Positions 34,800-40,608 of a stretch of 40,608 nucleotides of DNA are shown piece by piece. Position 1 is the first letter of the stretch. Every line of letters begins with the position of its first letter. Below the pieces are notes generated by a model. That model ran no database searches and was not told where the DNA came from. It saw only the letters and a program-made list of their open reading frames with translations. This DNA is from Fimbriimonas sp. (GTDB taxonomy: Bacteria > Armatimonadota > Fimbriimonadia > Fimbriimonadales > Fimbriimonadaceae): positions 1 to 40,608 of the forward strand of contig JARXAE010000034.1 of NCBI GenBank assembly GCA_029866005.1. The letters are read 5' to 3'. Both the position numbers and the translations under genes were made by a program.

Positions 34800-35369
34800 G
34801 TGATCGTGGTGTCGATGATCTATGAAGGCGCAGGAAGTTTCGATGAGGATACAATCCTTGTCGATCGCTTCGTTGGCGGTGATCAAAGCGCATTCGAAAC
34901 CCTGTACTCAAGGTATTACACCCGTGTTTTTAATCTTGCCCGGGGCGTCCTGATTGACCCCGAAGAGGCCGCAGACGCAACCCAAGAAATCTTCGCACTT
35001 GTGTACCGCAACCTGCCCAAGTTTAACCGCCAAAGCAAGTTCAGTACTTGGCTCTTCAGAATCTCGGTCAATCGTTCCATCCAGGAGTCCAGAAAACGCC
35101 GGTTCAGGAACAAGACCCTGGAGTTGGACCAAGCGGCCGAACATCCCGCCCCTTCCCAAGGTGGGCCCGAGCCAGATCCACGTGTTCAACTGGCGATGGA
35201 GATGCTCGCTCCGCAGGACCGGGCAATCATCACTCTTTTCTACTGGCAGGAGCTTAGTCTTCAAGAGATTGCCGACTCAATGGACATCAATCTCAACGCC
35301 GCAAAGACCCGTTTATACCGAGCGAGAGAGAGATTCCGTCAACATTTTGAAGAGGAGCCCGAACTCTAG
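34800..35369 (+). CDS. ECF-type RNA polymerase sigma factor
   Basis: A 189-residue sigma-70 family protein. Region 2: LVDRFVGGDQSAFETLYSRYYTRVFNLARGVL, DPEEAADATQEIFALVYRNLPKF, STWLFRISVNRSIQESRKRR. Region 4: LAPQDRAIITLFYWQELSLQEIADSMDINLNAAKTRLYRARERFR, with the helix-turn-helix near the C-terminus. The start is uncertain: GTG at 34800, GTG at 34809 (AGGTG 6 nt upstream) or ATG at 34815. The following gene starts within its stop codon (TAGTG) and encodes a membrane protein whose layout fits an anti-sigma factor, so the pair is probably a signal-transduction unit. The target promoters cannot be seen. Confidence 0.94.
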   Translation: MIVVSMIYEGAGSFDEDTILVDRFVGGDQSAFETLYSRYYTRVFNLARGVLIDPEEAADATQEIFALVYRNLPKFNRQSKFSTWLFRISVNRSIQESRKRRFRNKTLELDQAAEHPAPSQGGPEPDPRVQLAMEMLAPQDRAIITLFYWQELSLQEIADSMDINLNAAKTRLYRARERFRQHFEEEPEL

Positions 35370-36085
35370 TGCAAATTCCACCAGAAATCGACGAGCTCAT
35401 GTGGGCGATTGCCGAAAACGACACCGTGGACGCGGTGTACGACTTTGAGCACCGGTTTCCCAAATACCAGCAAGAACTGATGCGCCGTATCAAAACCGTT
35501 TCGGCCCTAAAGGCCCAAGGCAAAACAATTCCGAGTCGAGAAATTCCAGTTTTCCAAGCCCGTCCAATCGCTCTAGATCGAAAGCCGATCCAATGGCTAG
35601 GATACGCTGCGGTTTCGCTCGCTGTGATTTCGACTGCCGTTCTCGCCGCCACTAGTAACAAGCCAACGCCAGCCGTCAAGCCAGTCGATGTTAACACGCA
35701 ACGCCGTAAAGCGATCCCAGAGTTGCCTATCGCAACTCCAAGCGTACCGATCGGACAAGCGACCCCGCCGATTGATCCTGCAAAGAACCCAGCACCTAAA
35801 CCTACTAACCAATTCAAGAAGTCAGACCTCATCCTTGAAGTCACCAAACTTCACTCTGCTATCCAGCTGATCGCCGCAAGTGGAGAAGTAACGGTGACGA
35901 TCGCCCCCGGACTTGAGAATCCGGATGTGCAGGTGAGCTTTACTCAGATGACGGCGATGGAAATGCTGACTGCCCTAGCAAAAGACTATGCCTTTACTCC
36001 GGTAGTCGACGGAGAAAAGCACATCCTGATTCTTCCTGTTAAGGATGACTCCAATCCGCAGGATGGCAACGAAGAGCTGAATTAA
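35369..36085 (+). CDS. Putative anti-sigma factor with periplasmic STN-like domain
   Basis: 238 residues from the GTG at 35369 (GAGGAG 11 nt upstream). Layout: an N-terminal cytoplasmic helical part (1-50; IDELMWAIAENDTVDAVYDFEHRFPKYQQELMRRI) like the small anti-sigma domains; one membrane helix (76-96; LGYAAVSLAVISTAVLAAT); a Pro-rich linker (about 98-150); and a C-terminal domain (about 154-226) with VTVTIAPGLENPDVQVSF and MTAMEMLTALAKDYAFTPVVDG, which resembles secretin/TonB short N-terminal (STN) domains. No zinc-binding HxxxCxxC of ZAS anti-sigmas is seen. The anti-sigma role is inferred from position and layout. It may sense an envelope signal directly through the STN-like domain. Confidence 0.6.
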   Translation: MQIPPEIDELMWAIAENDTVDAVYDFEHRFPKYQQELMRRIKTVSALKAQGKTIPSREIPVFQARPIALDRKPIQWLGYAAVSLAVISTAVLAATSNKPTPAVKPVDVNTQRRKAIPELPIATPSVPIGQATPPIDPAKNPAPKPTNQFKKSDLILEVTKLHSAIQLIAASGEVTVTIAPGLENPDVQVSFTQMTAMEMLTALAKDYAFTPVVDGEKHILILPVKDDSNPQDGNEELN

Positions 36086-36132: not shown

Positions 36133-36858
36133 ATGCGAATCAAACGGACTTCCGACGTTATCGAACTCATCAGTGAGCGCGCCTTCTATTTCTTCATCGG
36201 CGGAATAGCTAGCGGTGCTCTCGCATTCCTCCTTCTGCGTTACAAGGGCGACGGAATGTTCGTCGGGCTTGGATCAGTGCTCGGGTTCGCCGCCGTTGGT
36301 CTAGTCGGTTACGGAATCAAAGTCGCTCTAGAAACTCGCACAGTTTCCTCTTTCTCAGTAGATTGTCCCATCTGCACCGAGCGAAATGAACTCGTGGATC
36401 AACCAGAGAATGAGGACGTGACTTGTGTAGCCTGCAACCACTTGATTCCGATCAAAAACGGAGCCGTTCTTCCAGTTGAACAAGTTCGATGTGGCTTCTG
36501 TAACTCTCTCAACTACTACTCAGAAAAGACCGAACTCCTCATTTGCGAAACCTGTAATCACGAGATTCCGATCACTCAAGAAGAGGGTAAACCCACGAAA
36601 CAGCTTCCCAAAGGCTATGCAGTTGTTGATGACAATCAAAGCTACGAGCTCGTGCTCATCGATGGTGGAAAGAAGGACGAAGAGGTCATCAAGGTTCTTC
36701 AGCACATGCTCGCGCTCAACCGGAATCAGGTGAAGGACATGCTCGAAGAAGTCCCTGTCACCCTGCTTCAAGGTATCCCCCGCATGAAGGCCGAGATGCT
36801 GGCGGCTCAGATTGGCAGTCACGGTGCAAAAGCCGAAATGCGGGTACTCAGCCAGTAG
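36133..36858 (+). CDS. Membrane protein with two zinc ribbons and a ribosomal L7/L12-like C-terminal domain
   Basis: 241 residues. Two membrane helices (about 17-36 and 42-62) near the N-terminus. Then two zinc-ribbon-like knuckle pairs: CPICTERNELVDQPENEDVTCVAC in parts (Cys78/81, 98/101) and CGFC...CETC (Cys120/123, 138/141). The last 70 residues (170-239) read YELVLIDGGKKDEEVIKVLQHMLALNRNQVKDMLEEVP, ..., AQIGSHGAKAEMRVL, which follows the L7/L12 C-terminal pattern (VxLxxxGxKKxxVIKxxRxxxxLxLxxAKxxVExxP, AxxxxxLxxxGAxxE). It may bind a translation factor or a ribosomal protein at the membrane. It precedes the pyrH-frr-uppS genes by 38 bp, and its own promoter lies upstream. Confidence 0.8.
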   Translation: MRIKRTSDVIELISERAFYFFIGGIASGALAFLLLRYKGDGMFVGLGSVLGFAAVGLVGYGIKVALETRTVSSFSVDCPICTERNELVDQPENEDVTCVACNHLIPIKNGAVLPVEQVRCGFCNSLNYYSEKTELLICETCNHEIPITQEEGKPTKQLPKGYAVVDDNQSYELVLIDGGKKDEEVIKVLQHMLALNRNQVKDMLEEVPVTLLQGIPRMKAEMLAAQIGSHGAKAEMRVLSQ

Positions 36859-36896: not shown

Positions 36897-37631
36897 TTGG
36901 CGAGCGGTAGACGACCCTTCAAACGCGCACTTATCAAACTCAGCGGCGAAGCCCTCGCCGGAGACCTGAAGTTTGGTCTCGATCCCCACGTTCTGAATTA
37001 CATCGCAAACGAAGTCGCTTCGGTCCATCAAGCGGGTATTGAAGCCGCAATTGTGGTCGGGGGCGGTAACTTCATTCGTGGAGAAACATTCTCGGCAGAA
37101 GGTGGCATTGACCGTTCTGTTGCCGACCAGATGGGGATGCTCGGTACGCTCATGAACTCTTTAGGCCTGCTCTCCGCGATTGAAAAGAAGGGAGTGGAAG
37201 TAAGAGTCCAAAGCGCGATCACAATCGCTGCCGTTGCCGAACCGTTCATCAAACGCAGAGCGATGCGCCACCTACAAAAGGGGCGAATGGTGATCTTCGC
37301 CGCCGGAACCGGAAACCCATACTTCTCTACCGACACAGCAGCGGTGCTCCGTGCCCTTGAAATCGATGCCGATGTGATCGTCAAAGCTACCAAGGTCGAT
37401 GGAGTGTACGACAGCGACCCAAACAAGAATCCTAACGCGAAGCGATATGACAAGCTGAGCTACAATACCGCGATTACAGACCGACTCAAGGTCATGGATC
37501 AAACTGCCTTCACGATGGCCGAGGAGCACAAACTCCCCCTCATCGTCCTCGATTTTCACAAACCCGGCGCCCTTCTTGATGCCCTCAGCGGCGGATCGAC
37601 GGGAACCCTCGTAGGAGACGAACAATCATGA
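36897..37631 (+). CDS. pyrH: UMP kinase
   Basis: 244 residues from a TTG at 36897 (no ATG is available upstream of the conserved start RALIKLSGEAL). The amino-acid-kinase fold of bacterial UMP kinase is clear: LIKLSGEALAG, AAIVVGGGNFIRG, DQMGMLGTLMNSLGLL, IFAAGTGNPYFSTDTAAVLRALEIDADVIVKATKVDGVYDSDP in parts, and MDQTAFTMAEEHKLPLIVLDF. It phosphorylates UMP to UDP in the cytoplasm. Usual length. The stop overlaps the frr start (ATGA), the conserved pyrH-frr-uppS order. In many bacteria tsf precedes pyrH; here it is the zinc-ribbon membrane gene. Confidence 0.97.
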   Translation: MASGRRPFKRALIKLSGEALAGDLKFGLDPHVLNYIANEVASVHQAGIEAAIVVGGGNFIRGETFSAEGGIDRSVADQMGMLGTLMNSLGLLSAIEKKGVEVRVQSAITIAAVAEPFIKRRAMRHLQKGRMVIFAAGTGNPYFSTDTAAVLRALEIDADVIVKATKVDGVYDSDPNKNPNAKRYDKLSYNTAITDRLKVMDQTAFTMAEEHKLPLIVLDFHKPGALLDALSGGSTGTLVGDEQS

Positions 37632-38188
37632 GCGTAAGCGACACCCTGCAAGAAGCAGAACATAAAATGCAACAGGCCCTCGAGGCAATGATCCACGACT
37701 TTGCGAGCTATCGCACGGGTCGCGCATCCCCAGCAATCCTTGACCGCGTACATGTCGAGTACTACGGAGTCGAAACGCCCATTACTCAAATCGCCAATGT
37801 CTCAGTACCCGAGCCTCGCCAGCTGATGATCCAGCCATACGAAAAGAACATGACCGCTGCCATCGAAAAAGCAATCATGAAGAGCGATCTCGGTATCAAT
37901 CCCAATAACGATGGAACGGGAATCCGTCTCATCTTCCCTCAAATGACCGAAGATCGCCGTAAGGACATGGTCAAGCAGGTTCACGCCCGCACCGAACAAG
38001 GTCGAGTTGCCATCCGAAACGTGCGCAGAGATGCCAACGACAGCATCAAGGGTCTTGAGAAGAAGAAAGAGATCACCGAAGACGAAGTGAAAGGCGGCGA
38101 AGCAAAGGTTCAAAAACTCACCGACACTTATATCTCCAAAGCCGATGACCTCGGCAAGAAAAAAGAAGAAGAACTGATGCAAGTCTAA
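37628..38188 (+). CDS. frr: Ribosome recycling factor
   Basis: 186 residues, exactly the family length. ALEAMIHDFASYRTGRASPAILDRVHVEYYG, VSVPEPRQLMIQPYEKN, AIEKAIMKSDLGINPNNDGTGIRLIFPQMTEDRRKDMVK in parts, and the three-helix part with IRNVRRDANDSIKGLEKKKEITEDEVKGGEAKVQKLTD. It splits the post-termination ribosome with EF-G. The ATG at 37628 overlaps the pyrH stop. Confidence 0.98.
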   Translation: MSVSDTLQEAEHKMQQALEAMIHDFASYRTGRASPAILDRVHVEYYGVETPITQIANVSVPEPRQLMIQPYEKNMTAAIEKAIMKSDLGINPNNDGTGIRLIFPQMTEDRRKDMVKQVHARTEQGRVAIRNVRRDANDSIKGLEKKKEITEDEVKGGEAKVQKLTDTYISKADDLGKKKEEELMQV

Positions 38189-38208
38189 AGCTGGGTTCCT
38201 ACGAAGGT

Positions 38209-38955
38209 ATGGACACCAAGCTAAAGAAGATACAAGTACAGGCACAAGAGCAGGGGATAGACCTCGAGACTCTTCCACACCACCTCGCCATCATTATGGA
38301 TGGCAACGGTCGCTGGGCGAAGAAGAAGGGCTGGCAGAGACTGCTTGGGCACCGTGAGGGCTATAAAGCCCTTCGTGGAGCTCTGCTCAATGCAAGCGAC
38401 CTCGGGATCAAGTACCTTACCGTCTACGCCTTCTCTGCTGAGAATTGGCGTCGACCCTCGGAAGAAGTCGAAGGACTGATGTCGCTGATCGAGAAGGCCA
38501 CACGAGAAGAACTCAGGATCATGCACACAAACAATGTGCGCCTCAACTTCTCTGGTCGTATCGAAGAACTACCTGCTGGTCTGAGGGACGCCCTGGAAAC
38601 TGGGATGGAGATGACGGCAAATAATACGGGAATCGTGTTTACGCTCGCCGTCAATTACGGCGGTCGAGCCGAGATTGTTGATGCAGTCAAGGACCTGATC
38701 GCTGCAGAGTTCGATCCGGAAGATATTACGGAGGAGTTGATTTCCGCTCATCTTTACAACCCGCACCAACCTGACCCTGACCTTATGATTAGAACGGCCG
38801 GCGAAATGCGGTGGAGCAACTTCCTGCTCTTCCAAGGCGCCTACTGCGAGCTCTGGGTCACTCAGGATCCATGGCCAGAGTTTTCGAAGCAACATCTCCT
38901 AGCCGCTGTCAAAGAATTTCAGCGACGAACGCGCAAGTTTGGTGCAGTCGTTTGA
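38209..38955 (+). CDS. uppS: Isoprenyl (undecaprenyl) diphosphate synthase
   Basis: 248 residues. The cis-prenyltransferase signature HLAIIMDGNGRWAKKKG (catalytic Asp in MDGNGRW), GHREGYKAL, YAFSAENWRRPSEEV, FTLAVNYGGRAEIVDAV and RTAGEMRWSNFLLFQGAYCELW (usually RTSGEQRLSNFLLWQ..Y.E). It elongates farnesyl diphosphate to the lipid carrier for peptidoglycan and other polymers. The first 20 residues (MDTKLKKIQVQAQEQGI) are a short extension before the fold. It lies 20 bp after frr. Confidence 0.97.
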   Translation: MDTKLKKIQVQAQEQGIDLETLPHHLAIIMDGNGRWAKKKGWQRLLGHREGYKALRGALLNASDLGIKYLTVYAFSAENWRRPSEEVEGLMSLIEKATREELRIMHTNNVRLNFSGRIEELPAGLRDALETGMEMTANNTGIVFTLAVNYGGRAEIVDAVKDLIAAEFDPEDITEELISAHLYNPHQPDPDLMIRTAGEMRWSNFLLFQGAYCELWVTQDPWPEFSKQHLLAAVKEFQRRTRKFGAVV

Positions 38956-39696: not shown

Positions 39697-40608
39697 CTAG
39701 TTCTTGATGGTCAGTGTTTTGCCATCAGCATTGGTAACCATCATGTTGCCTCTAAACTTTCCATCTGTAGCTACAAGCTTTTGTTGCTCTTTGGTGAGGT
39801 CGTTGAACAAGAGATGACCTTGCTTCCTATGCAAATCCCACTGGGCTGGAGTCAAAGAAGCCATGAGCTTCTTCATCGTCTCTCCGAGGTCTTTCAGATG
39901 CGCGGAGGCCTCGCGGTGAGAATGCTCCGCTTTCTTCATCTCCTCACGAGTCTTCTCGATGTCACGTGCTGACTTAATCATCTCTTCACGAACAGCAGCA
40001 AGTTCCTTTTGCATCTTTGACCTTTCTTCTTGGCTCAATCCAGGTGGAAGTTCGTGCAACTTCGCAAGCTCCCTAAAACTCTTCTCGTCGAACGTGAAAC
40101 CGAATCCGTCGGCGCCGAGCGGGGGGATCGCAGGCATCGCCGACATACCTGGCAAAGTTAAAAGGTACGGACGCTTCGGATCCACTCGAGGTGCGACGGG
40201 GTTTCGGGAATCAAACGGGGCACCCGTTGAAATCCCAAATGAGCGACCCGCTCGAAAAACAAGTGTCTTGCCACGAAGACTCCAGTAGCCGCCAAACACT
40301 TCGCCAATCGCATCTAGCGCCTCGTGAAGAGGCACGTTCTTCAGGTTTAACGAGAGGCGCCCTTTGGGCATCGAATCGCTTGAGCTGGCAAAGTTCACGC
40401 CTTGCTTCGAAATCCACCTCAGTACATCTGTTGCAGATGCGTCAACGAACGAACAGGAAACCTCCTTCTTAAACTCTGGGAGTCGCTTAAGTTGGTCGGA
40501 AGAGCCGTTCGAGGCGAAGAGATTTCCTACAATTGGAATCTCCGAGAGGCGAGGAACCTCTGAAGCCTGATCGGGACGAATCGGCACTTCGCGTGCCTGG
40601 AACTCGGT
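39697..40608 (-). CDS. Exported STN-domain protein with coiled coil, 5' end outside the window
   Basis: About 303 residues; the frame runs off the right window edge without a stop, so the true start is not visible. Near the visible N-terminus PRLSEIPIVGNLF resembles secretin-type segments. Then an STN-like domain: EVSCSFVDASATDVLRWISKQGVNF, KGRLSLNLKNVPLHEALDAIGEVFGGYWSLRGKTLVFRAG. A helical, Glu/Lys-rich coiled coil follows (SQEERSKMQKELAAVREEMIKSARDIEKTREEMKKAEHSHREASAHLKDLG, in parts), and a C-terminal beta-like end. It probably sits in the periplasm. The STN-like domain is reminiscent of the one in the putative anti-sigma factor at 35369-36085. Confidence 0.7.
   Translation of the reverse strand, partial: TEFQAREVPIRPDQASEVPRLSEIPIVGNLFASNGSSDQLKRLPEFKKEVSCSFVDASATDVLRWISKQGVNFASSSDSMPKGRLSLNLKNVPLHEALDAIGEVFGGYWSLRGKTLVFRAGRSFGISTGAPFDSRNPVAPRVDPKRPYLLTLPGMSAMPAIPPLGADGFGFTFDEKSFRELAKLHELPPGLSQEERSKMQKELAAVREEMIKSARDIEKTREEMKKAEHSHREASAHLKDLGETMKKLMASLTPAQWDLHRKQGHLLFNDLTKEQQKLVATDGKFRGNMMVTNADGKTLTIKN

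Follow-up and report, generated by a model that had tools for sequence, protein, structure and literature searches.

The gene considered here lies at positions 36133–36858 (forward strand) of a 40,608-nucleotide stretch (the window) of a 2.8 Mb Fimbriimonas sp. genome and codes for a 241-residue protein. Its translation, Pfam matches and cysteine alignment give the order two membrane helices, zinc ribbon, zinc ribbon, linker, and L7/L12-type C-terminal domain (CTD). Immediately upstream on the same strand are the genes for an ECF sigma factor (34800–35369; PF04542 and PF08281) and a presumed membrane anti-sigma protein with an STN-like C-terminal part (35369–36085); the latter gave no Pfam match, and its assignment comes from its position after the sigma gene and a reading of its sequence. 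Downstream, also on the forward strand, are pyrH, frr and uppS (36897–38955), recognised from their sequences, so that the gene does sit directly before pyrH-frr-uppS in its own genome, as noted in a previous reading of this DNA (the sequence-only reading). A scan for promoters and terminators gave counts no better than chance. Near the end of the window a reverse-strand open reading frame of 296 residues (39697–40587) has both a weak match to the end of a secretin and a coiled region resembling Metal_resist.

The N-terminal membrane hairpin (residues ~15–66; 36175–36330) has a short turn at residues 37–41 and is indicated both by hydrophobicity and by the helices of a full-length AlphaFold2 model, which span residues 6–36 and 41–70; both of its ends are predicted to face the cytosol. 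Following it are two zinc-ribbon motifs, C78-x2-C81 ... C98-x2-C101 (36364–36435) and C120-x2-C123 ... C138-x2-C141 (36490–36555), the second of which also has weak Pfam zinc-ribbon matches. All eight cysteines, two CxxC pairs in each ribbon, occur without exception in the 64 homologues, and both ribbons are likely to bind zinc. Residues 149–166 (36577–36630) form a flexible linker that is modelled with low confidence (pLDDT below 50 at 149–167) and is the least conserved of all the regions. The CTD occupies residues 167–238 (36631–36846), and within it the segment L195-N-R-N-Q-V-K201 (36715–36735) takes the place of the L12 hairpin L78-G-L-K-E-A-K84 in the CTD alignment. The full-length model was built from six sequences and has a mean pLDDT of 76 and a pTM of 0.42, and therefore does not fix the mutual placement of these parts.

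The C-terminal domain is homologous to the L7/L12 CTD. The last ~70 residues match PF00542 (E 1.2e-6; 29.2 bits, with a curated cut-off of 25.9), and 26 of 31 diverse homologues match it independently at E 0.1 or better, with a best E of 2.3e-8. A family profile built from 31 sequences finds bL12 chains of the PDB (E 6e-11), and the same chains rank first in a phmmer search with the 241-residue protein. When 64 family CTDs and 31 L12 CTDs of the phylum are compared profile to profile, the probability is 98% (E 3e-13), and controls with shuffled or reversed columns score below 1%. Modelled alone (residues 160–241, AlphaFold2, pLDDT 85.5), the domain runs beta-alpha-alpha-beta-alpha-beta, as the L12 CTD does, and this predicted fold superposes on 1ctf with Z 12.6 and an rmsd of 1.2 Å over 68 residues. 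The sequence-only reading had taken these C-terminal residues to be of L7/L12 type and named structural comparison as the check, and on both counts it is borne out, as it is for the two ribbon motifs and the two membrane helices.

ClpS was considered as the closest relative because of a resemblance by eye (EEVIKVLQ in the family and MEFVIDVLQ in ClpS), and was rejected as the main reading from the profile comparison and the rmsd. The family CTD profile scores 35% against ClpS, and the profile of the protein's own taxonomic family alone gives 96% for L12 and 5% for ClpS. The predicted domain matches ClpS structures with Z 9 to 10.5 and an rmsd of 2 to 3 Å, and, with matches admitted up to E 1, Pfam did not return PF02617 (ClpS) for the 241-residue protein. 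The comparison of L12 with ClpS rests on retrieved loci, for which sequences of the two E. coli proteins served as seeds.

The protein is not the ribosomal L12. The same genome has a separate 129-residue L12 gene directly 3′ of rplJ on another contig (C9), whose product scores 149.9 bits against TIGR00855. The 241-residue protein scores 25.7 bits against this model (cut-off 84.4), matching profile positions 55–124 only; the N-terminal half, responsible for dimerisation and L10 binding, is unmatched, and the membrane helices and zinc ribbons occupy its place. We also considered the protein as a substitute for a missing L12 or EF-Ts, and this is ruled out by the presence of genes for both elsewhere in the genome.

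The 241-residue protein belongs to a real family of Armatimonadota. Full-length members are present in nine taxonomic families of the phylum, which we label anonymously (f for families, g for genera, with f1 as the protein's own family): f1 to f5 span the whole order, and relatives at 20–30% identity reach f12, f13, f14 and f19. For Armatimonadota, this answers the question of phyletic distribution that the sequence-only reading had raised. A scan of genome contigs with the single protein, which reaches close relatives only, found five loci, all in Armatimonadota, and a plasmid search gave weak matches to the CTD only. In addition to the cysteines, all 64 sequences share E11 and P208 (P91 in E. 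coli L12). Mean identity within f1 is 70% for the second ribbon, 59% for the CTD and 37% for the membrane part, and dN/dS relative to the orthologue in genome G096 is 0.02 for the whole protein and 0.002 for its CTD, values of which only the direction is safe because dS is near saturation.

There are informative departures from the full-length form. One example is in genus g13 (loci L057, L063 and L075), where the protein is 152–153 residues long and ends after the second ribbon; it retains both ribbons and the sigma and anti-sigma neighbours without the CTD, showing that the CTD is not indispensable. A second example is a set of short relatives in families f31 to f35 (L153, L154 and L155) with two membrane helices and one ribbon. 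Taken together, these forms make the CTD look like a module added to a membrane zinc-ribbon core.

The CTD aligns to E. coli L12 without gaps (E. coli number equals the number in the 241-residue protein minus 117), and the two can thus be compared position by position. In L12 the hairpin L78–K84 contacts translation GTPases. Bacteria are reported to conserve K65, K70, K81 and K84 of L12, and substitutions of K65 and K70 to weaken EF-Tu binding (PMC10602876). All of the 31 L12s of the phylum compared here have K65, K70, R73, G79, L80, K81, E82, A83 and K84. In the family (64 members), residue 65 varies (E, T, P, D or S), V66 is replaced by Glu or Asp in 55, and Lys is present at position 70 in eight; position 73 is Gln in 52, and at position 81 there is Asn in 43 members and Lys in two. 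Position 84 alone stays basic (K or R in 62 of 64). Family members carry a mean net charge of −0.9 on the alpha4-alpha5 hairpin (residues 64–89), and the L12s of the phylum one of +1.7. Scaffold residues are retained (P91 in all 64, L58 in 63 and A103 in 60). The sequence-only reading had named a lack of conservation of the key Lys/Ala face as grounds for refuting it, and the loss of K65, K70, R73 and K81 speaks against its link to translation GTPases.

The sequence that stands in for LGLKEAK is itself conserved. LNRNQVK is near-invariant in the 39 sequences of f1 and three of f2, with N196 and R197 present in 39 of 39 f1 members, N198 in 37 and Q199 in 38; in members of f12 the hairpin is LKEA(R), which is closer to that of L12. 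Such conservation of the new hairpin face indicates that it is under selection for something, and the loss of one conserved face together with the gain of another points to a different partner, though some GTPase binding may persist. The factor-binding face, now LNRNQVK, has thus probably been remodelled to suit some partner that is not one of the general translation GTPases; with the L12 lysines gone, the CTD probably binds something else at the membrane.

The genes adjacent to the family vary across the phylum. Counting same-strand neighbours within 2.6 kb at 43 f1 loci, the sigma factor gene is present at 35, the presumed anti-sigma gene at 36, and hppA (confirmed by PF03030) at no fewer than 23; the last is a lower bound because many f1 loci have just 1.5 kb of flanking sequence. 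In the genome described here hppA is on another contig (G000:C21:514-3546). At all three f2 loci hppA lies 3′ of the family gene, and it is the sole recurrent neighbour there. In f5, f12 and f13 a gene for a glutaredoxin (PF00462) of ~90 residues is directly 3′ of the family gene at nine of twelve loci (e.g. L047, L052, L055, L058, L064 and L073), and no glutaredoxin gene adjoins the family gene in f1 or f2. None of the sigma, anti-sigma, hppA or glutaredoxin neighbours was seen at f3 and f19 loci. As the sigma and anti-sigma linkage is confined to f1 and other families differ, the neighbourhood does not indicate a single pathway. We note that the HppA proteins encoded beside the family gene in Fimbriimonadales are long (~1070–1230 residues), with a large and variable insert between two PF03030 stretches (L036 6833–10039, L040 7029–10301 and L066 6802–10500, as well as the copy in the present genome).

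The pyrH-frr-uppS genes adjoin the family gene at just three of the 43 f1 loci, those of the present genome and of the two most closely related to it, and in no other family looked at. The argument from ribosome recycling in the sequence-only reading therefore describes a local arrangement only. Overall, the domain identity, ribbon motifs and membrane anchoring proposed there stand, and the link to translation GTPases is not supported.

The best explanation, to which we give a probability of about one half, makes the protein an Armatimonadota adaptor anchored in the membrane, with the face of its L12-type CTD remodelled to bind something other than the general translation GTPases. The two-helix hairpin would hold the two zinc ribbons on the cytosolic side at the inner face of the membrane, the flexible linker would present the L7/L12-type domain, and the rebuilt face would bind the partner. 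That partner probably belongs to membrane or envelope-stress signalling, since the gene is accompanied by those of an ECF sigma factor and a presumed anti-sigma protein in f1, the family from which the suggested link to the sigma factor and envelope stress is drawn.

Several other roles can be weighed against the same observations. The sequence-only reading suggested that the CTD could tether a translation factor to the membrane, and this, or the tethering of one specialised GTPase, would accord with the L12 fold, the basic residue at position 84, the LKEA(R) hairpin retained by some f12 members, and the gene preceding frr in its own genome. We think it unlikely given the loss of K65, K70, R73 and K81, the acidic residue in place of V66 and the inverted hairpin charge, with K65 and K70 being the very residues whose change weakens EF-Tu binding (PMC10602876), and the frr adjacency is seen at 3/43 loci. 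A related proposal would have the LNRNQVK face bind a single specialised GTPase, or the ribosome itself, and make the protein a membrane stalk mimic coupling translation to an envelope-stress sigma system; we regard this as rather improbable. Docking of ribosomes or their subunits at the membrane, with the ribbons touching rRNA and the CTD imitating the stalk, finds some encouragement in weak matches of the first ribbon to S27e (PF01667 in 5 of 31 members, best E 2.5e-6; 1qxf at E 5e-4), but short zinc ribbons score across many unrelated families and no L10- or rRNA-binding part was found in the 241-residue protein, so that this role seems very unlikely.

Two further alternatives move away from translation. 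The eight invariant cysteines could make the protein a redox or zinc sensor, in which the Cys4 ribbons would lose zinc when oxidised, a glutaredoxin would restore them, and the CTD would relay the signal or merely stabilise the protein; the glutaredoxin genes of f5, f12 and f13 and the g13 form that keeps its ribbons without a CTD are both in keeping with this. We nonetheless consider it doubtful, as there is no adjoining glutaredoxin in f1 or f2 and structural zinc ribbons also keep their cysteines without any sensing. A ClpS-like adaptor passing degrons or membrane substrates to a Clp ATPase would exploit the fold that the CTD has in common with ClpS, and helix 1 of the CTD (VIKVLQ) resembles the corresponding VIDVLQ of ClpS; Armatimonadota also keep ClpS-type genes in tandem, such that the fold is in use there. 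The much stronger profile match to L12 and the closer superposition on 1ctf leave little room for this role, and its chances are slim. We thus favour the membrane-anchored adaptor with a rebuilt CTD face. On this view an L7/L12 CTD has left the ribosome and acquired a different binding surface, itself conserved, as part of a membrane protein that much of the phylum retains. The conserved LNRNQVK hairpin offers a specific handle for a partner search, and a PF00542 match, or the database name 'ribosomal protein L7/L12', is not evidence of a role in translation.

L12 CTDs are found outside ribosomes elsewhere in Armatimonadota. One example is a 930-residue protein (L149; G190:C176:86400-91000) with a zinc-ribbon start followed by a Ser/Thr kinase domain (PF00069), L12 CTD repeats and membrane helices; two of the repeats pass the PF00542 threshold singly and there are about five by eye, and the protein could be a striking non-ribosomal use of the domain. 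The phylum also has an arrestin-domain protein and small membrane proteins that contain PF00542. Elsewhere, single-TM proteins with a zinc ribbon or HTH and a ClpS-ribosomal L7/L12 domain are encoded beside Skillet-2 lipocone genes and have been read as signalling or regulatory proteins (PMC12419801), and one cyanobacterial orthocaspase has a Ribosomal_L12 domain (PMC8283722). A mobile non-ribosomal L12 domain is thus of a known kind, and the architecture described here, kept phylum-wide in part, is a variant that we did not find in the literature searched. In most Fimbriimonadales genomes there are also two ClpS-family genes in tandem (here G000:C15:17674-18161), with products of ~100 residues each that are well diverged from E. 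coli ClpS.

Among known systems, the proteins of PMC12419801, compared by description, are similar: they are membrane proteins in which the L12/ClpS-type domain is cytosolic, and one variant also carries a zinc ribbon. They differ in having one TM segment rather than two, and in their fusions: there a ribbon is joined to a conserved helix and an HTH to the L12/ClpS domain, whereas the 241-residue protein combines two ribbons with the L12 domain in a single chain. ClpS (PF02617) has the overall fold of the CTD, although its profile match is weak and it lacks zinc ribbons and a membrane anchor. YgzB/DUF2614 (PF11023) likewise has two membrane helices followed by a zinc ribbon, but has a single ribbon and no L12 CTD; the short two-helix ribbon relatives in other Armatimonadota families align to family residues ~20–117, and one of them scores 20.1 bits against PF11023, just below the Pfam cut-off of 21. 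In bL12 the CTD is homologous, with the same fold and the same scaffold residues, and a flexible linker likewise precedes the domain in the 241-residue protein. In contrast to bL12, the protein has a membrane hairpin and two zinc ribbons and no N-terminal dimerisation domain, the family has lost the factor-binding lysines, and the gene lies outside rplJ-rplL and coexists with that of a true L12.
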